From positions 186,001 to 250,000 of the forward strand of contig NZ_JAHNZT010000002.1 of NCBI RefSeq assembly GCF_019039035.1: a DNA stretch of 64,000 bases. Reading direction: 5' to 3'. Origin of the DNA: Citreicoccus inhibens (GTDB taxonomy: Bacteria; Myxococcota; Myxococcia; Myxococcales; Myxococcaceae). Numbering within the stretch: the first letter of the stretch is position 1; each line of letters begins with the position of its first letter. This document shows positions 7,108 to 63,667 of the stretch, in pieces. The position numbers were made by a program, and so were the translations under genes. A model generated the notes under the pieces. The model did no database searches and was not told where the DNA came from. It was given only the letters and a program-made list of their open reading frames with translations.

Positions 7108-9380
7108 GCACGACGCGGCAGGCCTGCCCCAACTGCGGCGTGGTGCACGACACGCGGGTGTACGTGAGCGGCCAGAAGGTGGCCTGCCGTTGCGGCATCC
7201 GCTTCGAGGTCCGTCGCAACGACGTCTCCCTCATCCGGCCCGCGGCGCGGCTGGAGGAGGGGCAGGCCACCCTCGTCCCGCACCCCGCGGAGCCTCCGGC
7301 GCAGAGGCCCGCCCAGGTGCCGAGCGAGGCGTCGGTGTCACTTTCCGCCGGCTCGGGTGTTTCTCCCGCCATGGACGCGAGCGAACCCGCGCGCGCGGGT
7401 CGACCGGGCGGGGACGAGGTGGGTGGAACTGCTCCCGTGGGGGGGGCCTGGGCACCCGTGTCCCGAGAGCCCTCGGGAGTCGCGCTGCCCTCCACGCCCG
7501 GCGTGGAGGACGCGGCGGGCGCCGGTGCGGCCACCCTGGTGCGCGGCTCTGCGCCTGGGTCCGCGTCGTCGGCCGTGACGCCGGTGGCGAGCGGGGCGGA
7601 GGAGGGCGCGGAGACGTTCGTGGCGGCGCCTCGGCCCGAGCTGCCGGGCTTCGAGTTGCAAGAGGTGCTGGGGCGGGGCGGGATGGGCGAGGTGTGGCGC
7701 GCGCGACAGCAGTCGCTCGGGCGTACGGTGGCGGTGAAGCTGTTGCCGCCGCGGCTCGCCAAGGATCCGGAGTTCGTCACCCGCTTCGAGAAGGAGGCCA
7801 CCGCGCTGGCGGCGCTGAGCCACCCGCACATCGTGCAGATCATCGACCGGGGCGTGGTGGGCGAGCACTACTACTTCGTCATGGAGTACGTGGAGGGCCG
7901 CTCGCTGCGCGAGGCGATGAGCACGGGCGAGGGCCTCACGCCGCAGCAGACGCTGAAGCTGCTGCTCCAGGTGTCGCGCGCCATCGAGTGCGCGCACGAC
8001 AAGGGCATCATCCACCGCGACCTCAAGCCGGAGAACATCCTGCTGGACGCGCGCGGCCACGTGAAGGTCGCGGACTTCGGGTTGGCGGGCATCCGGCAGC
8101 CGGACTCGCGCCTGCAGCTGACCGCGACCGCGGTGGCCATGGGGACGCTCAATTACATGGCGCCCGAGCAGCGCCGCGACGCGAAGAACGTGGACGGGCG
8201 CGCGGACCTCTTCTCCCTGGGGGTCATGCTCTACGAGGCGCTCACCGGCGAGCTGCCGCTGGGCCGCTTCAAGCTGCCCTCGGCACGCGTCCCCGGGTTG
8301 GATCCCCGCGTGGACGCCGTGGTGGAGCGCCTGCTGGAGACGGAGCCCGCCGCCCGCTACGCGAACGCCGGTGAGGTGTGCGCGGCGTTGGAGGTAATGG
8401 TCTCCAGTTCGTCCGCGCCGGCGCTGGCGCTGGGGGACTCCGCGCGGGCGTTTCCGTCGGGGACGCCTCGGGCGCGCAGCGAGCTGACGCGGCGGCTGCG
8501 GCTGGGTTGGCGGCGCGTGCGCGCGGGCCTGTCCGTGGTGGGCGGGCTGGCGCTCCTGGGGCTCACCGTGCGGTGGGCCGTGGGGCCCGTGAGCCTGCAC
8601 GTGGGCCAGGATGACAAGGTCGTCATCGGCACCCAGGGCGTGAAGGTCCGGCCGGGCACTCAGCCCTGGCCTCCCAACACGGAAGGCGAGGTGTTTGCCT
8701 CGGCCAACGTGGTGGAGGGCCCGGGCGGCACCACGCGGTTCGAGGTGGGCTTCGACGCGGGCGAAGAGGAGCTCAACGTCCACAGCGGCGAGTGGAAGAT
8801 GCAGGATGGGCAGCTCCAGGCGCGCCAGGGCGGCAAGGAGACGGACGGGCATCGCCTGGTGCCGCGCGCGTACGTGGCCCACCGCTACTTCATGAGCGAC
8901 GACTTCACGTCCGAGGTGCTCATGGACGTGAAGCCGCTGGGGCCGGCCTATCCCGAGGAGCCGGACGCGCAGCACTTCGGTGAGCTGGCCTTCCGCATCA
9001 AGGATCTCCAGGTGTCCGCCTTCGCCATCCCCGAGGTGGGCATGCGGCTGTCCTGGCGCTACATCACCGACGCGGGGCAGGAGATTGTCGGCAACAGCGC
9101 GCAGGACCTGGACAACATGGTGGCGGACGAGATGCCGCTGCCCACGCACGGGCCCTTCCTCGTGCGACTCCAGCTCCGGCGCCTGAAGAGCGACGCCGTG
9201 AAGGTGGAGGCGTTCCTCAACAACCAGCTGTTCGCGAGCAAGGTGCTGCCCGGCTTCCAAGGGCGCGTGGGCAAGGTGGCGCTCGGCTGCCGCAACCTCG
9301 CGTGCACCTTCGATGACCTCAAGGTGCGGGGCGTGCTGGGCGCTCGGCCCGCGCGCAAGGTGGCCGCGGGCATCGAGTAG
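7104..9380 (+). CDS. Membrane Ser/Thr protein kinase with N-terminal zinc ribbon
   Basis: 758 residues from the ATG that overlaps the cyclase stop (ATGA). A zinc-ribbon-like segment (about 8-37; CPNCG then CRC) comes first, followed by a Pro/Ala-rich linker. The Hanks-type kinase domain spans about 179-431 with the GRGGMGEVW glycine loop, the VAVK lysine, HRDLKPEN with catalytic Asp306, DFG and APE. One membrane helix lies near 474-495. The external C-terminal part (about 500-758) is beta-rich and looks like a concanavalin/LamG-like sensor fold, but I cannot assign it firmly. Coupling to the FHA-cyclase suggests that kinase output is read by the cyclase's FHA domain. Confidence 0.9.
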   Translation: MSTTRQACPNCGVVHDTRVYVSGQKVACRCGIRFEVRRNDVSLIRPAARLEEGQATLVPHPAEPPAQRPAQVPSEASVSLSAGSGVSPAMDASEPARAGRPGGDEVGGTAPVGGAWAPVSREPSGVALPSTPGVEDAAGAGAATLVRGSAPGSASSAVTPVASGAEEGAETFVAAPRPELPGFELQEVLGRGGMGEVWRARQQSLGRTVAVKLLPPRLAKDPEFVTRFEKEATALAALSHPHIVQIIDRGVVGEHYYFVMEYVEGRSLREAMSTGEGLTPQQTLKLLLQVSRAIECAHDKGIIHRDLKPENILLDARGHVKVADFGLAGIRQPDSRLQLTATAVAMGTLNYMAPEQRRDAKNVDGRADLFSLGVMLYEALTGELPLGRFKLPSARVPGLDPRVDAVVERLLETEPAARYANAGEVCAALEVMVSSSSAPALALGDSARAFPSGTPRARSELTRRLRLGWRRVRAGLSVVGGLALLGLTVRWAVGPVSLHVGQDDKVVIGTQGVKVRPGTQPWPPNTEGEVFASANVVEGPGGTTRFEVGFDAGEEELNVHSGEWKMQDGQLQARQGGKETDGHRLVPRAYVAHRYFMSDDFTSEVLMDVKPLGPAYPEEPDAQHFGELAFRIKDLQVSAFAIPEVGMRLSWRYITDAGQEIVGNSAQDLDNMVADEMPLPTHGPFLVRLQLRRLKSDAVKVEAFLNNQLFASKVLPGFQGRVGKVALGCRNLACTFDDLKVRGVLGARPARKVAAGIE

Positions 9381-9595
9381 CGCCGCGGGCACCCGAGCCG
9401 TGTCCGTCCAGGAAGGTAGGAGTGGGAGCGGCTGCCCCCGCCGTGAACGCGGCGTGCGAACTGGCGTGGTCGCGCTACACCCTGGGTCGGGCCGCACGCG
9501 GCGCGCCTTCTCCGGGCGCGGACACCTCTGCTGCAATGCAGGGGCTCGCACTGGATTTCCCCCCTCGTCCCCCTCACCGCGAGCCCCCTCTCGCC

Positions 9596-10132
9596 ATGCC
9601 TCTCTCCACGTGGACCATTGATCCTGCCCACTCCTCCGTCCTCTTCATCGCGCGCCACATGGTGGTCGCGAAGGTGCACGGTCGCTTCGAGCGCGTCACC
9701 GGAACCCTTCGGGTCGATCCCCAGCAGCCCACGCAGGGGGAGGTGGACGTGGAGGTGGCGACGGCGAGCATCTACACGGGCTCACCCGAGCGCGACGCGC
9801 ACCTGCGCTCGCCCGAGTTCCTGGACGTGGAGGTGTCCCCGCGGCTGTCGTTCCGGGGCGTTCAGCAGGAGGCCGTGGTGGGCGCGGGCTTCCGCGTCCT
9901 GGGGGACCTGACCCTGCGCGGCGTGACGAAGCCCGTGCTCCTGGAGGCGCGTCATCTGGCGGCTCAGAAGGACCTGTGGGGCAACATGCGCCTCATCTAC
10001 ACGGCGCGCACCACGCTGAACCGCTCGGACTTCGGCATCCGCTGGAACAAGACGCTCGATAACGGCGGCTGGCTGGTGGGCGAGAAGGTGGACATCGAGT
10101 TGGACATCCAGGCCGTGCCCGCGGCCGCCTGA
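9596..10132 (+). CDS. YceI family lipid-binding-like protein
   Basis: 178 residues from the ATG at 9596. The start WTIDPAHSSVLFIARHMVVAKVHGRF-type segment, the central SPEFLDVEV block and the GDLTLRGVTKPV block are those of the YceI lipocalin-like barrel, which binds isoprenoid or polyprenyl chains in characterised members. No signal peptide is present, so this copy is probably cytoplasmic, unlike the periplasmic E. coli protein. Reading is open upstream to 9422 but those residues do not resemble the family. The 215 bases between the kinase stop and this start show no further gene. Confidence 0.88.
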   Translation: MPLSTWTIDPAHSSVLFIARHMVVAKVHGRFERVTGTLRVDPQQPTQGEVDVEVATASIYTGSPERDAHLRSPEFLDVEVSPRLSFRGVQQEAVVGAGFRVLGDLTLRGVTKPVLLEARHLAAQKDLWGNMRLIYTARTTLNRSDFGIRWNKTLDNGGWLVGEKVDIELDIQAVPAAA

Positions 10133-10264
10133 CGTCCATCGTCGGACGGAGGACGGCCACCTGCCCCGGGAGTGGCCTTGCCCGAGGCCGCCCGACGCCC
10201 AACCCTTGTCCCGCGCGACGCGCCCCCCAGGACGCGTGCGTGGAACAGCTCGGCGGGGGTCGGG

Positions 10265-53617: not shown

Positions 53618-54388
53618 ATGCACCTGTCCCCACGAGACGTCGACAAGCTGTTGCTCCATCAAGCGGGCTTCCTCGCGCAGAAGCGGCTCGCGCGCGGCCT
53701 GAGGTTGAGCTACCCGGAGGCCGTCGCCCTCATTGCCACCCAGTTGCTGGAGTTCATCCGTGACGGGAAGAGCGTGGCCGAGCTGATGAACCTGGGGCGG
53801 GGCCTGCTGGGGCGCGCCCAGGTGATGGACGGCGTGCCGGAGATGCTGGTCGAGGTGCAGGTGGAGGGCACCTTCGCGGATGGCTCGAAGCTCGTCACCG
53901 TGCACCACCCGGTGGAGGCGGACCACGGCGACCTGTCGCTGGCGCTCCATGGCAGCTTCTTGCCCGTGCCTCCTCGCGAGCGCTTCCCGTGGCCCGTGGC
54001 CTCCTCGGAGGGGACGCCCGGAGAAGTGCGCACGGCGCCCGGAGAGATCCTGTTGAACGCGGGCCGTGAGGCCGTGTCGCTCGTCGTCACCCACCGAGGG
54101 GATCGCCCCATCCAGGTGGGCAGCCACTACCCCTTCTTCGAGACGAACCGCGCGCTGGTGTTCGACCGGGCTCGGGCCTACGGCCACCGCCTGGACATCC
54201 CCGCGGGCACCGCGGTGCGCTTCGAGCCAGGGGAGCGCAAGACGGTGCGGCTGGTGCCCATCGCGGGTGCGCGCATCGTGCAGGGAGGCAACGCGTTGGG
54301 GAGCGGAGAGGTGACGCCCGAGGGCCTGGAGCGCGCCATGGCGCAGGTGCGAGCGCGCGGCTTCGGTCACGAGGAGGGGCAGTCATGA
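53618..54388 (+). CDS. ureAB: Urease gamma-beta fusion subunit (UreAB)
   Basis: 256 residues. The gamma part (1-100) begins [21 protein letters not shown] and contains [13 protein letters not shown]. The beta part (about 130-235) has [23 protein letters not shown] and [15 protein letters not shown]. In most bacteria these are separate genes; fusion into one chain is known in Helicobacter and some others. It overlaps ureC by four bases (ATGA). GGGAG lies nine bases before its ATG. Confidence 0.93.
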
Positions 54389-56100
54389 GCCGGGGAATCG
54401 ATCGCCGTCACTACGCGGACATGTTCGGGCCCACCACCGGGGACCGCGTGCGCCTGGGCGACACCGGCCTGTGGGCCGAGGTGGAGCGCGACGCCACTGT
54501 CTACGGTGACGAGTGCAAGTTCGGCGGAGGCAAGGTCCTGCGTGAGGGCATGGGCCAGCGCGCGGGGACGGGAGACGCGGACGCGCTCGACTGCGTCATC
54601 ACCAACGCGCTCATCCTGGACTGGACCGGCATCTACAAGGCGGACATCGGCATCAAGGCGGGGCGGATCAGCGCCATTGGCAAGGCGGGCAATCCGGACA
54701 TCATGGCGGGGGTGACGCCGGGCATGGTGGTGGGCGTCACCACCGAGGCCATCTCCGCGGAGGGGCTCATCGTCACGGCGGGCGGGCTGGACACGCACAT
54801 CCATTTCATCTGCCCGCAGCAGGCGGACGAGGCGCTCGCCAGCGGCATCACCACGTGGGTGGGCGGGGGCACGGGGCCCGCGACGGGCAGCAAGGCGACC
54901 ACGTGCACGCCGGGAGCGTGGAACCTGCACCGGATGCTCCAGTCCACGGACTCGCTGCCGCTCAACATCGGGCTGACGGGGAAGGGGAACACGTCGCTGC
55001 CGCAGGGACTGCTGGAGCAGATCCGCGGTGGCGCCATTGGCCTGAAGCTCCACGAGGACTGGGGCACCACGCCCGCCGCCATCGACACGTGCCTGAGCGT
55101 GGCCGAGGGCGAGGACATCCAGGTCACCATCCACACCGACACGCTCAACGAGTCGGGCTACGTGGACGACTCGCTCGCGGCCTTCCGGGGGAGGACCATC
55201 CACACGTACCACTCGGAGGGCGCGGGTGGCGGACACGCGCCGGACATCATCCGCGTGTGCGGCGTGGAGCACGTGCTGCCCAGCTCGACGAACCCCACGC
55301 GGCCGTACACGGTGAACACGCTGGATGAGCACCTGGACATGCTCATGGTGTGTCACCACCTGGATACGGAGATCCCCGAGGACGTGGCCTTCGCGGAGAG
55401 CCGCATCCGGGGCGAGACGATCGCCGCGGAGGACATCCTTCATGACCTGGGGGCCATCAGCATGATGTCCTCGGACAGCCAGGCCATGGGGCGCGTGGGC
55501 GAGGTCATCTGCCGCACCTGGCAGACCGCGCACAAGATGCGCGAGCAGCGCGGGCGCTTGCGTGAGGAGCGCGGCGACAATGACAACCTGCGCATCCGCC
55601 GCTACGTGGCCAAGTACACCATCAACCCCGCCATCGCCCACGGGCTGTCTCATGACGTGGGCTCGGTGGAGGTGGGGAAGCTGGCGGATCTGGTGCTGTG
55701 GCGCCCGGCCTTCTTTGGCATCCGTCCGGAGCTGGTGCTCAAGGGCGGGCTGACCGCCTGGGCGCAGATGGGAGACGCGAACGCGTCCATCCCCACGCCG
55801 CAGCCCTATCTCATGCGCCCGATGTTCGGGGCGCGAGGCCGCGCGGTGGGCGCCACGAGCGTGGCCTTCGTCTCGGCGCGTGCGCTGTCCGAGGGGCGAT
55901 TGGACGAGCTCGGGTTGACCAAGCGCCTGTCCGCGGTGCGGCGGTGTCGGGGCCTGACCAAGCGCGACATGCGCCTCAACGACGCGCTGCCGCGCCTGAC
56001 GGTGGACCCGGAGACCTACGAGGTCCGCGCCGACGGCGAACTCTTGCGCTGCGCGCCGGCCGCGCGGCTCCCGCTCACGATGCGCTACTCGCTGTTCTGA
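54385..56100 (+). CDS. ureC: Urease alpha subunit
   Basis: 571 residues, the usual length. Urea is hydrolysed to ammonia and carbamate at a two-nickel site. The bridging carbamylated Lys is Lys221 in [18 protein letters not shown] gives two nickel His, HTDTLNESG and [15 protein letters not shown] others. The flap Cys-His pair is in MVCHHLD (Cys323-His324). All active-site residues appear intact. The gene is coupled to ureAB and followed 12 bases later by ureF. Confidence 0.97.
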
Positions 56101-56112
56101 GAGGCACGGACC

Positions 56113-56775
56113 TTGGGCACCTCCTGGCGCGTGTTGCAGCTGGCGGACTCGGGCTTTCCCACGGGGGGCTTCGCGCACTCCGGTGGCCTGGAGGCGGCCG
56201 TCCAACAGGGCGAGGTGCGCGGGGCCGAAGGCATGCGGCGCTTCGTGCGCGAGCTGCTGTGGCAGGCCGGCCTGGGGGGCCTCCCGTTGGTGAACGAGGC
56301 GCACGCGGACCCCACGGCGCTGGCTCGGCTGGACGCGCGCGCGGACAGCTTCCTCGCCAACCACATGGCGCACCGCGCGAGCCGCACGCAGGGCCGCGCG
56401 TTCCTGGACACGTGCGCGCGAATCTTCCCGGAGCCCGTCGCGCCGCTGCGCGAGTCCGCGCGGGCCCAGGGACTGCGTTGCCACCATGCGCCGCTGTTCG
56501 GCGCGGTGCTGCGGGTGTTGGGGGTGGAGGCGGACGACACGCGCCGGCTGTTCCTCTCGTTGACGCTGCGAGGCGCGCTTTCGGCGGGCGTGCGGCTCGG
56601 CATCCTCGGCACGCACGAGTCACACCAGCTCCAGCACGAGAGCGCGCCGCGGCTCGACGCGGTGCTGGAGCAATGCGCGGAGCTGGGCGTGGCATCCCTG
56701 GCGCAGCCATCTCCCGTGTTGGACCTGCTCGGCTCGACGCACGACCGGCTCTATTCGAGGCTCTTCCTGTCCTGA
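56113..56775 (+). CDS. ureF: Urease accessory protein UreF
   Basis: 220 residues, TTG start at 56113; the ureC stop lies in frame 12 bases upstream, so no other early start is available. LLQLADSGFPTGGFAHSGGLEA-like start is split here as LQLADSGFPTGGFAHSGG. The helical protein binds UreD and acts as the GTPase-activating checkpoint for UreG. It is shorter at the N terminus than some relatives. Confidence 0.9.
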   Translation: MGTSWRVLQLADSGFPTGGFAHSGGLEAAVQQGEVRGAEGMRRFVRELLWQAGLGGLPLVNEAHADPTALARLDARADSFLANHMAHRASRTQGRAFLDTCARIFPEPVAPLRESARAQGLRCHHAPLFGAVLRVLGVEADDTRRLFLSLTLRGALSAGVRLGILGTHESHQLQHESAPRLDAVLEQCAELGVASLAQPSPVLDLLGSTHDRLYSRLFLS

Positions 56776-56786
56776 GGTGAGGCGAC

Positions 56787-57518
56787 ATGCACGACGACCA
56801 CCGTGGCCATGGCCATGACGACACCGACCACGAGCACGAGGAGTGGGAGCACCCTGGTCATTACGAGGAGCGCGAGCTTCCTCGCCGGCGAGACTTCTCC
56901 GCCCGCGCGTTCACGATTGGCATTGGCGGCCCCGTGGGCAGCGGGAAGACGGCGCTCGTGCTCGCGCTGTGCCGGGCCTTGCGCGAGCGGATCCGCCTGG
57001 GCGTGGTGACGAACGACATCTTCACGAAGGAGGACGCGGAGTTCCTCGTGCGCAATCAGGCGCTGTCGCCCGAGCGCATCCGCGCCGTGGAGACCGGAGG
57101 CTGTCCGCACGCGGCCATTCGCGAGGACATCAGCCACAACCTCCTGGCGCTGGAGCAGCTCATGGAGGAGCTGCAACCGGAGCTGCTCATCGTCGAGAGC
57201 GGGGGAGACAACCTCGCGGCGCAGTACAGTCGCGAGCTGGCGGACTACACCGTGTATGTCATTGACGTGGCGGGCGGAGACAAGGTGCCGCGCAAGGGCG
57301 GCCCCGGCATCACCCAGTCGGATCTGCTCATCATCAACAAGACGGACCTGGCGCCGCACGTGGGCGCGGACCTGGGCGTCATGGAGCGCGATGCGCGCAA
57401 GATGCGGGGCCCCGGGCCCTTCGTCTTCACCCAGGTGACGCGCGGTGTGGGCCTGGACGCGGTCATCACGCACCTGCTCGATGCCTGGCGGCGTCACGGG
57501 GGGAGAGCGGTGGCATGA
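56787..57518 (+). CDS. ureG: Urease accessory GTPase UreG with a His-rich N terminus
   Basis: 243 residues. GPVGSGKT (48-55) is the P-loop, with NKTD and CPH metal-binding residues in [11 protein letters not shown]. The first 25 residues contain eight His among Asp and Glu, unlike the bare start of most bacterial UreG proteins. UreE, the usual nickel carrier with a His-rich tail, is missing from the cluster, so this extension may store or deliver nickel, as proposed for plant UreG. The end overlaps a possible 55-codon gene. Confidence 0.95.
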
Positions 57519-57709: not shown

Positions 57710-58534
57710 ATGTCGATCCGCCCTGTGTTCTCAGCCCCCCCTCTCCCCGTGGCAGTGCTCCCTCACCGTGCGTGGCTCGCGCTGGCGTTCCTCCTCCTCT
57801 TCGCCGCCTACGAGGCGCCCGAGGGCATCGGGGGTCGGCTGCTCGGCAACGCGGCGCTGGCCGCGGCGATGATGGTGGCCTTCCACGCGGTGGCCTGGTG
57901 TGTGGGGCGCGGGCTGGGCTACCGCAATGGCTTCCATGCCTACGGGCTGGCGTGGCGCTGGCGTGCGCTGTTGCCCGCGTTGGCGGGAATGCTCGTGCTC
58001 AAGCCGCTGTCGCTGGGGGTGGGGGCCGCGTTGGGCTGGGTCCGCATCCAGCCCCTGGCGAACCCTCCCCAGGCGAGCGCGGTGGCCGTCGCGACGCTGG
58101 CGCTCCTGGTGACGACGTTCATTCCGTCGGTGGCGGAGGACATCGTCGCGCGCGGCTTCTGGTTGCGCGCGTGGCCGGTGGCGGGGCAGGGCCGGGGCTA
58201 TGTCCTGCTCTCCGCGACCTGCTTCGTGCTGACCCACGTCTATCGCTTGGGGAAGGGCCCCCTGGAATGGTTGATGCTGTTCTCCATGGGGCTGGCCTTC
58301 GCCGCGGCCGCCGCGCGCACCGGCTCCCTGTGGGGCGCGGTGGGACTGCATTGGGGCTGGAACCTCGCGAACGGAGGGATGGACCTGGTGCTGGACGTCA
58401 CCCCGGTGGGCGGGTGGCTGCCGGTGCTGTCCACCATGACAGGGTGGGTGGCGCTGGGGTGTGTGGCGCTCCTGCCGCGATGGAGCACTGCGGCATCCAC
58501 GGGGTCGTCCGTGCCCCGGGACCCCGGTGAGTAG
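57710..58534 (+). CDS. CPBP-family intramembrane protein, protease motifs altered
   Basis: 274 residues with six to eight membrane helices. CPBP (CAAX-type) motifs are recognisable: AEDIVARGFW near 145, FVLTHVYRL near 172 and GLHWGWNLANG near 210. The first motif of active members has two adjacent Glu; here it is Glu-Asp, which may weaken or alter the activity. It follows the urease cluster by 27-190 bases and is not obviously part of it. The protein could process a membrane peptide or act only as a binding partner. Confidence 0.7.
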   Translation: MSIRPVFSAPPLPVAVLPHRAWLALAFLLLFAAYEAPEGIGGRLLGNAALAAAMMVAFHAVAWCVGRGLGYRNGFHAYGLAWRWRALLPALAGMLVLKPLSLGVGAALGWVRIQPLANPPQASAVAVATLALLVTTFIPSVAEDIVARGFWLRAWPVAGQGRGYVLLSATCFVLTHVYRLGKGPLEWLMLFSMGLAFAAAAARTGSLWGAVGLHWGWNLANGGMDLVLDVTPVGGWLPVLSTMTGWVALGCVALLPRWSTAASTGSSVPRDPGE

Positions 58535-58569: not shown

Positions 58570-58920
58570 GTGCCTACCGAGACCGGCCCGATCGACCGTC
58601 GTTCGTTCCCTCGCCTCCAGGCCCCGTTGTATGCGCGTCCGGCGCGGGTCCAGTTCGGAGAGAAGCGAAAGGTGCTGGACGTCAGCCTCAGTGGCGCCCG
58701 CATCTACTCCGACGAATACCACGCCGAGGGCAGTCGCCTGGACGTCGAGTTGTTCCTGCCGGACGGCGGGAGCCTCGAGTGTACCGCGCGCGTGGTGTGG
58801 ACGTTGAAGCTGCCCAAGGACGCGGTGGCCCGCTACGAGGTGGGGCTGGCGTTCCTGGATGTTTCGCCGGACGCGCTCGCCCGGCTCCAGCCCGTGCTGA
58901 TCGACGACTTGGGCCAGTGA
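58570..58920 (+). CDS. PilZ-domain protein
   Basis: 116 residues, GTG at 58570. The c-di-GMP-binding pattern RRSFPR (near residues 10-15) and DVSLSGARI (near 38-46) is intact. A single PilZ domain fills the protein. It should read c-di-GMP and affect motility, extracellular polymer or an adjacent system. It lies 63 bases before the ABC operon on the same strand. Confidence 0.9.
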   Translation: MPTETGPIDRRSFPRLQAPLYARPARVQFGEKRKVLDVSLSGARIYSDEYHAEGSRLDVELFLPDGGSLECTARVVWTLKLPKDAVARYEVGLAFLDVSPDALARLQPVLIDDLGQ

Positions 58921-58983: not shown

Positions 58984-59937
58984 ATGATTGATGAGAATGC
59001 CGCTGTCGCCACGGGGGAGGCGGCGGACGTGCCGGCTTCAGGGGCTCCTCTTTCCGAGCCCGAGGTGGTGCTACGCACGTTCGGCCTCGTGCGCGCGTTC
59101 GATGCGGTGCGCGCGGTCAACGGCGTGGACCTGGAGCTGCGCCGCGGTGAGGTCTACGGCTTCCTCGGGCGCAATGGCGCCGGGAAGACGACGACGCTGC
59201 GGATGCTGATGGGCATCCTGCGACCTGACTCCGGAGAGATCGAGCTGATGGGCGAGCGCGTGCGCCGTGTCCGCGCGGCGCAGAAGCGGCGGCTCGGCTA
59301 CGTGTCGCAGGAGCAGGTGTTCTATCCGTGGATGACGGCGAAGCAGCTCGGGGAGTTCGTCGCCGGCTTCTATGCGGATTGGGACGCGGCCCACTTCACG
59401 CGGCTCTTGCGCGTGCTGGACGTCCCGGTGGAGCGCAAGTCCGCGCAGCTCTCCGGCGGCACGCGCATGAAGTTGGGGCTGGCCCTGGCCCTGGCGCATC
59501 GCCCGCCGTTGCTCATCCTGGATGAACCCACCGCCGGGTTGGATCCGGTCGCGCGGCGCGAGTTCCTCGACATCCTCCGCGAGCAGGTCCGGAGCGAGGG
59601 GCAGACCGCGCTGTTCTCCTCGCACCTCGTCGGCGAGGTGGAGGAAGTGGCGCATCGCATCGGCATCCTCCACGAAGGACGTCTGCGCTATCAGGGCAGC
59701 CTGGAGCGCCTGCGCCAGTCCGTGCGTCGGGTGCGCTTGGAGGAGCCAGGCCCCGAGTCAGCCCCTCCAGGTCTGGAGTTGGTGCGCAAGGAGCGCGCGA
59801 ACGAGGGCCGACGGGCATGGGTCTACTCGGGCGCGCCTGAGTCGTGGGACACGAGCCCGTTTCCGCGCGAGGCCATCGAGGCGCTCTCGCTGGAGGACAT
59901 CTTCCTCGCCTACGCGCGCCGGTCGGACGAGGCATGA
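58984..59937 (+). CDS. ABC transporter ATP-binding protein
   Basis: 317 residues. Walker A is GRNGAGKTT, Q-loop YVSQEQ, signature LSGGTRMKLGLALAL, Walker B LLILDEPTAGLDP and the switch His in FSSHLVGEVEE. It has a C-terminal extension of about 80 residues beyond the usual end, as in ABC-2 exporters. It overlaps the next gene by four bases and should power both downstream permeases as a single complex. Confidence 0.93.
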   Translation: MIDENAAVATGEAADVPASGAPLSEPEVVLRTFGLVRAFDAVRAVNGVDLELRRGEVYGFLGRNGAGKTTTLRMLMGILRPDSGEIELMGERVRRVRAAQKRRLGYVSQEQVFYPWMTAKQLGEFVAGFYADWDAAHFTRLLRVLDVPVERKSAQLSGGTRMKLGLALALAHRPPLLILDEPTAGLDPVARREFLDILREQVRSEGQTALFSSHLVGEVEEVAHRIGILHEGRLRYQGSLERLRQSVRRVRLEEPGPESAPPGLELVRKERANEGRRAWVYSGAPESWDTSPFPREAIEALSLEDIFLAYARRSDEA

Positions 59938-61787
59938 GCGCCGCGTTGTTGCGCAAGGAGTGGCGCGAGCACCGGGGCGCGCTCATCCTCCTCAACGTGC
60001 TGTTCGGCGTGTTGGGCGCGCTGCTCGTCCTCAACGAGGCGCGCTACGCGACGCACGGCACCTTGATGGAGGTGCTCAAGATACCCGCGGTGATGCTGTC
60101 CACGGCGGCGGCATTGTTCGTGGCGCACCGGCTGGTGACGCGCGAGTACGGTCAGCGCACCCAGCTCTTCTTGGAGTCGCTCCCGCTCTCGCGAGCGAGC
60201 ATCCTCGCGACCAAGCTGCTGTTGGGCGGCGGGGTGTTGTTGTTGCCGCTCGTGCTGACGGGGCTGGCGCTGTGGAGTCGCGCGCGCCTGCACGAGGACC
60301 TGTCCGCGCGGTTCTTGCTCATCCTGGGCCTGCGCGCGGCCACGCCCGTGCTGCTGGGGTGGATGTTCTGCGCGCTCGCGGGACTGATCGGCCGCTATCG
60401 CAACCCGCTCTTCCTGCTGCTCTTTCTCGCGCTGTTCGCGGCGGACCGCCTCACGGACTTCGACCTCACGCGCGTGGGGCCCACGGTGCTGCTGGGCAGT
60501 GACTTCGCGTTCGAGCGCCAGCACTTTCCCTGGGCTGCGTTGGGGCTCTGCTGGGCCGCCATCCTGGGGATGGCCGCGGTGTGCTTCGGCCTCGTGTTGC
60601 ACCGCGATGGGACGCTGGCCGAGCTGCTCTCCCAGCGGATGAGTCACCGCGAGAAGGTCTTCATCGCGTGCATCTGCGTCGGCCTGGTGGTGGTCATCTC
60701 GGTGATGGACGCGGCCAAGCAGCGGCAGCCATTCACGCTGCATGACGCGGAGCAGGCCCTGGCGGTGGGCTCGCCCGTCCAAGTGTCGTCGGGCGTGGGT
60801 TTCTCACGCGAAGACGCGGCGCGGTTGGCCACGCGGCTCGCGAATGATCTCGGCGCGCTCTCCCGCTATCTGGGGCTGGAGCGGCTGCCCGCGGTGGCGG
60901 TGATGCCCATTCGCGAACTGGACGCGGACGTGTTCCAGCGCGCGGAGTTGGAGAACGCGGATGGCGTCGTCGTGCGCGCCAACCTCGCGGACCCCGCGTT
61001 CGACGTGCGCGACTTCGAGGCCTTCCTCTTCCAGCAGGTGCTGATCTGGACGAGCAAGGGGCAAGTGCTGCGCGAGGAGCGCCGATGGTGGTTGGACGGC
61101 TTCACCGCGTGGTGGGCGCGCCGCGACGAGGAGGATCCCCGTCTGTCTCCGCGCGTCGCCGTGGCCTCGCGTGATGATTTCGATCCACGGGCCTGGCTCA
61201 CGACGCGCGAACGCGTGGGGCCCTGCCTCGCGGGGGCGCTGGCCGCGCGAGGCATCACCGTGCTGCGCTCCCAGCTTGACGAAGAGGCCTTCCACTCCCT
61301 CGCGCGACAGCTGCTGGCATGGCCGCCTGGGACCGGCGTCACGGGAAGGCTCAGCGAGCCTCGCCTGGAGGACCTGTTGCGCGCGCGGGGCCTCGGCTCC
61401 GAGTCCGAGCTGTTCACGCGCTGGCGCACCGCCGCGAGTCAGGACCGGGCCGTGCACGCCGCCTTGCTCGAAGCGCTGTCGCGCCTGCACCCCTCGCTGC
61501 ACGTGGTGGCGGAATCCCAGGAGACGTTCCGCCTGGAGCACCGGCTGCGCGGAGAAGGGAACACGCCAGCCGGACGGTACGCGCTGCTGTCGCAGAATCT
61601 GGGCCCGTTCACCGCGGAGGTGGCGCCCTACGCGCTGTCGCGGCAGGACGCGGTGGGCGCGGAGGATGCCGTCATCCTCCCCCAAGGGCTCGCGCGAGGA
61701 GAGCGCTGGCTGTTCGTGATGCAGCAAGAGCGGCCCGAGCTGGGGTGCCCGGTGCGGCTGGTGGCGGAGCGGAGGGAGATTCCATGA
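59934..61787 (+). CDS. ABC-2 permease with a degenerate gluzincin-like C-terminal domain
   Basis: 617 residues, ATG overlapping the ATPase stop. The first 265 residues contain six membrane helices of an ABC-2 permease, with a further helix at about 240-265. The C-terminal part (about 290-617) is outside the membrane. Its core (about 310-400) can be aligned by eye to the peptidase domain of the next gene. The HETTH site is replaced by FLFQQVL (364-370) and the downstream SEGLA by LDGFTA, with Asp388 in place of the Glu. The zinc site is lost, so it is a pseudo-enzyme. A beta-rich end of about 90 residues follows. Confidence 0.8.
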   Translation: MSAALLRKEWREHRGALILLNVLFGVLGALLVLNEARYATHGTLMEVLKIPAVMLSTAAALFVAHRLVTREYGQRTQLFLESLPLSRASILATKLLLGGGVLLLPLVLTGLALWSRARLHEDLSARFLLILGLRAATPVLLGWMFCALAGLIGRYRNPLFLLLFLALFAADRLTDFDLTRVGPTVLLGSDFAFERQHFPWAALGLCWAAILGMAAVCFGLVLHRDGTLAELLSQRMSHREKVFIACICVGLVVVISVMDAAKQRQPFTLHDAEQALAVGSPVQVSSGVGFSREDAARLATRLANDLGALSRYLGLERLPAVAVMPIRELDADVFQRAELENADGVVVRANLADPAFDVRDFEAFLFQQVLIWTSKGQVLREERRWWLDGFTAWWARRDEEDPRLSPRVAVASRDDFDPRAWLTTRERVGPCLAGALAARGITVLRSQLDEEAFHSLARQLLAWPPGTGVTGRLSEPRLEDLLRARGLGSESELFTRWRTAASQDRAVHAALLEALSRLHPSLHVVAESQETFRLEHRLRGEGNTPAGRYALLSQNLGPFTAEVAPYALSRQDAVGAEDAVILPQGLARGERWLFVMQQERPELGCPVRLVAERREIP

Positions 61788-63667
61788 TCCGTCCGCTCAT
61801 CGCGAAGGAGCTGAGGGATCAGCGCCCGTTCCTCTGGCTCTCGGTGTTCTTCCTTGCCGTGGAGGTCATCACCTCCCTGTGGACGGAGCCGCTGGGGTTC
61901 AGCCCCTACGCGCAGACATTCGTCGAGCGCTTCAAGGTGGGGGGTGACCTCTCCACCATGACCTTCGTCCTCGCCTTCGCGCTGGGGACGGGCTTGCTCG
62001 TGCGTGAGCAGGATGATCGCACGCTGGAGTTCCTCGACGCGCTGCCCACCTCGCGCGGGATGCTGTTCAGCGTGAAGCTGGGCGTCGCGCTCGGGCTGGT
62101 GTTGCTGTACCCGCTGGGGCTCACGGCCTGGACGCTCGTGGAGCACGGGCTGTCGCGCACGTCGCTCGACGCGAGCCTGCACGTGGACCTGCTGGTGGTT
62201 GGCTCGGTGCTGCGGATCATCCAGGCGCTCGCGGTGCTGGCCCTGGCCCTGGCCCTGGCGCCGCTGCGGCGGCTGTCGTGGACCGCGCTGGCGGTGCTGA
62301 TGCTGGCGCTGAGCCTCTGGCAGGACCGCGTGCCGTGGCTCGCCGCGCTCAACCCGCTTCAGCTCACCGCGCCGGAGTTCGAGGGGACGCGATGGCCATG
62401 GCCCGTGGAGGCAATGGCTGTTCAACTCGGCGCCTCGGGTGTGCTGCTGTTCATCGCGCTCGCGCAGTTCCTGGGGTTGGGGCAGCGGCGGTTGGGGGCG
62501 CTCCTGCGCTGGTTGCAGCAATCGTGGATGAGCGGCGTGGTGAGCCTGGGCACGCTCGGGTTGTTCATCGCGGTGCTCGCGCGAGTGCTTGGCCCCCCGC
62601 CGGGAGGCGCGGACGGTGGCGCCGCGGACGAGCGTCCTCGGGTTCGCTTCCCCACGAGCACGGTCGCGCAAGCGGCCACGCGCTACTACCGCTTCACGTA
62701 TCCCGCCGAGCTGCGCCATCGCGCGGGCCCGTTGGTGGACGCGGCGGATGGCGTGCATGAGCAGGTGCGTCAGTTCCTGGGCGAGTCGCCCGGCGCCCTC
62801 ATTCACGCGGACCTGGGCGGCAGCGCGGCGCATACGGGCGGCACGGCCTACTGGAACACCCTGCGGATGGACCTCGCGGGCGCGTCCGACGCGGAGCGCG
62901 CGAGCGCGGTGCTCGGGCACGAGACGACGCATGTCCTCGCCCATCGGTTGGTGGGCGTGGCCTCGGTGCCCAAGCTGTCGCGGATGAAGTTGCTCAGCGA
63001 GGGCCTGGCCACCTACGTGGAGACCCGCTTCTTCTCGCCCGAGCGGACGTCCGATTATCAACTCATCGCCGCGGCGGCGCGGGCGCGGCGTGAGGTGAAG
63101 ATCGAGGAGTTGTTGGACCCAGAGCGCCTCGCCGCGGATCGGGATGCGGACTGGGTGTATCCGCTGGGCCGGGCCTTCGTGGACGCGCTCGTGCGGAGGC
63201 ATGGAGAGGGCGCGCCGGCCCGCGTGCTCGCGGCAATCGGTCGCGAGGGAGCACCCGAGGGGCTCGACGGCGCGCTCGCGTGGCAGGACGCGTTCCAGAC
63301 CGCGGGCATCGACTTGTCCCAGGTGTTCGACGACATGTTCGCCGCGCTGGACGCGCAGGTTGCGGCGCAGCGAACGCTCTTGGATTCACTGCCGCGCCCG
63401 CGCGGGGTGGTGGAGCGTCAAGACGGTCGCGTGGCCATCCGCGCGCGGCTCGACAAGCCGTTGCCTTCCGGCTGGCGTGTAGTCTGCCGCTTCCGGCGGA
63501 CTGAGCGAGCCGAGTCGTACGAGTTGGACGGACCGTACGCCGGGGAAGGTCCGCACTGGCGCGAGGCGACGGATATCTCAGAGGGTCGTATCTGGTATCA
63601 ACTCGGCATCCAAGGGCCTGAGTCCCTCATCCTCTATGAGCCCTGGACGCTGGTGCGTGTGAAGTGA
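61784..63667 (+). CDS. ABC-2 permease fused to a gluzincin metallopeptidase-like domain
   Basis: 627 residues, ATG overlapping the previous stop. The first 270 residues are an ABC-2 permease with six helices. From about 300 on is an extracytoplasmic domain with HETTH at 379-383, followed 23 residues later by Glu406 in SEGLA. This is the HExxH plus distal Glu pattern of gluzincin (peptidase MA clan) zinc proteases. A helical tail and beta end (about 540-627) follow. The fusion suggests that a peptide or protein is cut as it is exported, or that the peptidase domain gates the transporter. M1-type peptidase/permease fusions exist in other phyla, but I do not recognise this shorter form. Confidence 0.8.
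   Translation: MIRPLIAKELRDQRPFLWLSVFFLAVEVITSLWTEPLGFSPYAQTFVERFKVGGDLSTMTFVLAFALGTGLLVREQDDRTLEFLDALPTSRGMLFSVKLGVALGLVLLYPLGLTAWTLVEHGLSRTSLDASLHVDLLVVGSVLRIIQALAVLALALALAPLRRLSWTALAVLMLALSLWQDRVPWLAALNPLQLTAPEFEGTRWPWPVEAMAVQLGASGVLLFIALAQFLGLGQRRLGALLRWLQQSWMSGVVSLGTLGLFIAVLARVLGPPPGGADGGAADERPRVRFPTSTVAQAATRYYRFTYPAELRHRAGPLVDAADGVHEQVRQFLGESPGALIHADLGGSAAHTGGTAYWNTLRMDLAGASDAERASAVLGHETTHVLAHRLVGVASVPKLSRMKLLSEGLATYVETRFFSPERTSDYQLIAAAARARREVKIEELLDPERLAADRDADWVYPLGRAFVDALVRRHGEGAPARVLAAIGREGAPEGLDGALAWQDAFQTAGIDLSQVFDDMFAALDAQVAAQRTLLDSLPRPRGVVERQDGRVAIRARLDKPLPSGWRVVCRFRRTERAESYELDGPYAGEGPHWREATDISEGRIWYQLGIQGPESLILYEPWTLVRVK

Follow-up and report, generated by a model that had tools for sequence, protein, structure and literature searches.

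An ABC-2 type transporter unit whose two permeases carry related outer domains, one with an intact and one with a lost gluzincin-type zinc site

Both peptidase fusions of ABC transporters and peptidase pairs in which one half is dead are already known. The C39 domain of peptidase-containing ABC transporters is cytosolic. C39 and degenerate C39-like ABC transporters resemble the unit described here in placing a live or dead peptidase domain on an exporter, but theirs is an N-terminal cysteine peptidase domain, whereas the unit has C-terminal domains of a zinc-type fold, predicted to be periplasmic, with live and dead forms together. NosY forms a pair with itself and has no peptidase domain fused to it; NosDFY nevertheless shares the NosY ABC-2 membrane fold with the unit. 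M16 pairs differ from a gluzincin pair in fold and zinc motif and involve no transporter. Two precedents are still informative: exporters use non-catalytic C39-like domains to recruit substrate (PMC6363468), and M16 pairs such as mitochondrial processing peptidase usually carry the active site on one half, with both halves required (PMC12731061). Each ingredient of the present arrangement has a precedent, while the live/dead combination on two transporter halves is apparently undescribed: a literature search, in which subscription papers were poorly covered, returned no description of an ABC permease fused with an M1, gluzincin or pseudopeptidase domain, or of transporter halves carrying such a pair.

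The unit lies in a window of 64,000 nucleotides, the whole stretch of DNA that was analysed (bases 186001-250000 of its contig, in an assembly of 9.05 Mb). The three open reading frames listed in an earlier note on this DNA were found where it had placed them:

58984..59937, + strand: ATPase, an ABC ATPase subunit of 317 aa (P0003; Pfam ABC_tran, E 6e-31)
59934..61787, + strand: permease 1, 617 aa (P0001), an ABC-2 membrane part with 7 predicted segments plus an outer pseudo-peptidase domain
61784..63667, + strand: permease 2, 627 aa (P0002), an ABC-2 membrane part plus an outer gluzincin-type peptidase domain

Both joints, ATPase to permease 1 and permease 1 to permease 2, are 4-base ATGA overlaps, and the three genes are a coupled unit. 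With an ABC ATPase and ABC-2 membrane domains, the unit belongs to the ABC-2 type transporters. The earlier note had called both permeases ABC-2 type, and the folds agree: NosY is the best solved match for both membrane parts (VIA-align Z 16.9, range 16-17, for permease 2 and 14.3 for permease 1). In Pfam, PF12730 lies above the cut-off in P0002 and below it in P0001, where the weak ABC2 matches are likewise all below cut-off. Seven membrane segments are predicted in each permease, and in both a positive charge at the N terminus and ahead of the last segment favours the cytoplasmic side. Because the outer C-terminal domains come after the seventh predicted segment, and given the usual N-in ABC-2 topology, both are predicted to be periplasmic. 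A C39 Pfam match is absent from all three proteins and the extra domain is C-terminal, so the unit does not class as a PCAT.

The likeness to NosY bears on what the ATPase might drive. ATP hydrolysis could serve only to switch a periplasmic peptidase pair on and off, with nothing crossing the membrane. Mechanotransmission of this kind has been proposed for FtsEX-type ABC systems, and NosD, the partner of NosY in NosDFY, is periplasmic. ABCG and ABCA exporters and a mycobacterial efflux pump, however, match the membrane parts nearly as well as NosY does. Since NosY and true exporters both match, the membrane fold does not separate mechanotransmission from transport. We consider a pure switch rather unlikely.

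The outer domain of permease 2 contains the following features:

62636..63664, + strand: outer peptidase domain of permease 2, residues 285-627
62918..62932, + strand: HETTH (residues 379-383), with both His and the Glu kept in 44 of 44 homologs
62999..63001, + strand: Glu406, candidate third zinc ligand, in 44 of 44 homologs and 22 residues past the second His in 42 of the 44
63158..63160, + strand: Tyr459, candidate catalytic tyrosine, in 43 of 43 readable homologs, 79 residues past Glu380

HETTH and Glu406 had been read in the earlier note as a gluzincin zinc site, and H379, E380, H383 and E406 proved invariant across 44 permease 2 homologs from five phyla. In the model of permease 2, HETTH lies within helix 370-390, not in a surface loop, and Glu406 in the next-but-one helix (402-417), which is the gluzincin layout. 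On sequence and model together, the domain appears to be a gluzincin of the peptidase MA clan, with HExxH and a downstream Glu in helices and a thermolysin-like core. Tyr459 may have a catalytic role, by analogy with lugdulysin E242/Y315 (from a structure entry title). When the domain was shuffled, HExxH alone arose in 1.4% of shuffles and HExxH with E-[GA]-[LFVM]-[AS] at gluzincin spacing in 0.009%; these rates and the invariance across homologs rule out a chance origin of the motif.

Peptidase_MA_2 (PF13485) gave no match to P0002 even at E 1, and the best of 40 homologs reached E 0.0018, short of the gathering score. Peptidase_MA_2 proteins, including TPR-linked myxobacterial ones, are profile relatives of the live domain and share its HExxH and distant Glu, but they are not permeases; one such TPR/Peptidase_MA_2 protein is encoded in the same genome (probability 97.4, E 1.1e-11). 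PF01433 had no match in P0002 or its homologs, so the domain does not class as an M1 aminopeptidase. The M1 exopeptidase motif G-x-M-E-N is also missing: the strand before HETTH reads GTAYWN, and MEN occurs nowhere in P0002. A free-standing protein (L079, positions 8378-10147 on the minus strand of contig C4 of genome G157) has the same peptidase domain with HETAH...HEGLA intact, followed by Sel1 repeats and no ABC-2 part; its profile match to the permease 2 domain is 99.9%.

Permease 1 has a corresponding outer domain in which the site is lost:

60735..61784, + strand: outer pseudo-peptidase domain of permease 1, residues 268-617, an M1-like core plus a beta sandwich
61023..61043, + strand: FLFQQVL (residues 364-370), the lost HExxH helix according to the alignments
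61095..61097, + strand: Asp388, replacing the third zinc ligand, D in 33 of 43 homologs
61224..61226, + strand: Cys431, close to the position held by Tyr459 in the active subunit, C in 28 of 43 homologs
61746..61748, + strand: Cys605, possible disulfide partner of Cys431, C in 36 of the 38 homologs with a residue there

FLFQQVL and Asp388, which the earlier note had taken as marks of a lost site, were both found again. None of the 43 permease 1 homologs has HExxH at the zinc site, so the domain is not an active gluzincin, though its fold is kept; the alignment register here is uncertain by a few residues, and HExxH appears in none of the registers. A single homolog (L032) contains HEELH, at residue 498, far from the site. 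Another (L038) reads HELLK at the lost site itself, perhaps a trace of an earlier HExxH. Gly389, next to Asp388, is invariant in all 43 homologs. Cys431 is invariant in the order-level set of 17, and a Cys431-Cys605 disulfide linking the core and the beta domain is possible. Four Verrucomicrobiota homologs (L103, L105, L107 and L119) stop about 100 residues early, apparently without the C-terminal beta domain, and in L080 the outer domain of permease 1 is barely recognisable.

Both outer domains might instead be binding modules only, with a structural zinc or with an enzymatic activity other than that of a peptidase. Permease 1 does keep a domain of the same fold without catalysis, as this would lead one to expect, but every catalytic residue is strictly conserved in 44 permease 2 homologs from five phyla, and the free-standing L079 also has an intact site. 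We regard this explanation as quite improbable.

We then compared the two outer domains with each other. Taken alone (40 and 42 sequences), they aligned in hhalign with a probability of 96.6%, an E value of 4.8e-10 and a score of 78, where 100 column shuffles averaged 13.9 and reached 22.9 at most; the same comparison with earlier, narrow alignments gave only E 0.024. In this alignment the EGLA helix (permease 2) falls on the DGFT helix (permease 1). Full-length profiles of the two permeases align end to end, and it is the membrane part that carries this match. On their own, the C-terminal beta domains showed no profile match to each other (E 0.074, wide alignments). AlphaFold models of the single subunits (permease 1 and permease 2: mean pLDDT 78 and 80, pTM 0.55 and 0.72) have their structural elements in the same order. 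In VIA-align, the permease 2 outer domain matched M30 lugdulysin (Z 15.4), M1 ERAP2 (14.8) and M9 collagenase (14.1), and that of permease 1 matched M1 aminopeptidases with Z 12-13 over residues 270-502, as well as the yeast TFIID subunit 6hqa_A (Z 12.5), which we take to be TAF2, a non-catalytic M1 relative. Direct Foldseek gave clear support for the fold of permease 2 and weak support for that of permease 1, whose model returned nothing at E 0.001 or better and had implausible matches on top (spliceosomal Brr2); this ranking probably comes from the mix of membrane and soluble parts in the model. The M1 match of permease 1 is accordingly that of VIA-align and profile comparison. By these profiles and models the outer domains of permease 1 and permease 2 are homologous, and the common descent of a live and a dead domain proposed in the earlier note, as opposed to unrelated folds, held up, with both models on M1-type folds.

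The same genome also encodes a single-chain protein of 1204 aa (L122, positions 1628-5239 of contig C79 of G000) in which ABC-2 membrane parts are joined to a Peptidase_M1 domain at the C terminus that contains HEAAH. Like permease 2, this fusion joins ABC-2 membrane parts to a C-terminal gluzincin domain (HEAAH...E); unlike the unit, it has both membrane halves and one peptidase domain in one chain and no dead partner. The unit, with two chains and two outer domains, is thus not a single-chain ABC-2/M1 fusion. The permease parts of the two showed no detectable kinship (hhalign probability under 1%), and an origin of the unit from this fusion is unsupported, the permease parts being unrelated by profile.

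The permease pair is not confined to this genome. In an order-level profile search it was adjacent in 17 of 145 genomes, a phylum-wide search added pairs in G157 and G160, and an alignment-based scan of genome contigs yielded 36 loci in Myxococcota, Verrucomicrobiota, Planctomycetota, Acidobacteriota and Pseudomonadota; a single-sequence scan of the contigs with P0002 found nothing. One of the two DNA patterns in the cross-phylum scan contained HETxH, so part of the sample is biased for permease 2; this bias does not affect the profile searches at order and phylum level, nor the permease 1 partners. Wherever the contig was long enough, the order was ATPase, permease 1, permease 2 in all five phyla, with an ATPase relative upstream of the pair in every such locus. 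The closest named carriers of the three-gene unit are Myxococcota such as Archangium and Pyxidicoccus, and cultured carriers include Archangium, Pyxidicoccus, Massilia and Steroidobacter. No plasmid match was found.

The asymmetry between the two domains has been kept over long evolution, with the zinc site present in 44 of 44 homologs on one side and in 0 of 43 on the other across the five phyla. In a joint tree, every dead domain fell into one clade (support 1.0) and every live domain into a second (0.98), where the free-standing relative was placed as well. Because the two clades are so supported, loss of the zinc site looks old and shared in these sequences, a single loss being the simplest reading. 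Comparing the two genomes of the genus gives dN/dS values of 0.15 in the dead core and 0.16 in the live core. The dead domain of permease 1 is under purifying selection, and free decay of this domain is rejected by these values. Pairwise distances in one outer domain follow those in the other with a correlation of 0.86 (0.82 when only a non-redundant set of 27 is used), compared with 0.70 and 0.77 between an outer domain and its own membrane part and 0.61 between the membrane parts; the outer-outer correlation was the higher in at least 99% of subsamples. Such correlated divergence suits a possible contact between the outer domains, for which it is indirect evidence.

Around the unit, neighbours vary (glutathione S-transferase, elongation factor G, sugar transferase and others), and among the sampled loci we found no neighbour besides the three genes that is conserved across phyla. 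The downstream gene, suggested in the earlier note as a secreted cargo, encodes a TPR protein, which adjoins the unit here and in the second genome sampled from the genus but at none of the other loci. Because of this restriction the cargo proposal is unsupported, and synteny rejects the TPR gene as cargo. Nor did any conserved small peptide or cargo gene adjoin the unit in the sampled loci. Just upstream of the ATPase, window positions 58570-58920 encode a PilZ-domain protein (E 1e-13) that adjoins the unit only in the genus's two genomes. A membrane protein at 57710-58534 has EDIVARG, FVLTHVYR and HWGWN motifs that, by eye, resemble CPBP-type intramembrane proteases, and a urease-type cluster further upstream (54385-57518), likewise recognised by eye, comprises a UreC-like ORF (54385-56100) and a UreG-like ORF (56787-57518).

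These neighbourhoods also bear on the reading of the earlier note, in which an exporter trims a peptide or protein cargo during export and the dead domain serves as a grip. The permeases and ATPase are ABC-2 exporter-like (the closest NCBIfam ATPase model is PmtA, well below cut-off), and the peptidase domain with the intact site lies on the predicted exit side. Against this, no conserved small peptide or cargo gene lies by the unit and the TPR neighbour is confined to the genus, so that we hold cargo trimming to be possible but doubtful. The lack of a linked cargo gene would fit the alternative in which ATP merely switches the peptidase pair.

With moderate confidence, we favour as most likely an exporter or mechanotransmitter of the ABC-2 type in which the ATP cycle drives a heterodimeric metallopeptidase in the periplasm. 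One ATPase, presumably in two copies, would power a heterodimer of the two permeases, and each permease would set one peptidase-fold domain in the periplasm. Together the outer domains would make up a single heterodimeric metallopeptidase whose one zinc site sits on permease 2; the domain of permease 1, its catalysis lost and its fold kept, would bind or orient substrate or gate its partner. ATP-driven movement of the membrane part could then feed peptide to the domain pair, or open and close the pair. We infer zinc, proteolysis, domain contact and ATP coupling in this mechanism, and take the heterodimer from gene order and correlated divergence only.

The working and the non-working peptidase domain thus probably act as a pair, and the asymmetry is fixed in five phyla; therefore, the dead domain has a job. 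More tentatively, the unit might represent a new class of ATP-driven periplasmic metallopeptidase, a live/dead gluzincin heterodimer built into ABC-2 halves as an ATP-opened clamp, present in at least five phyla and with its asymmetry fixed once. The presence of the unit in cultured bacteria makes the live/dead pairing testable by point mutation.
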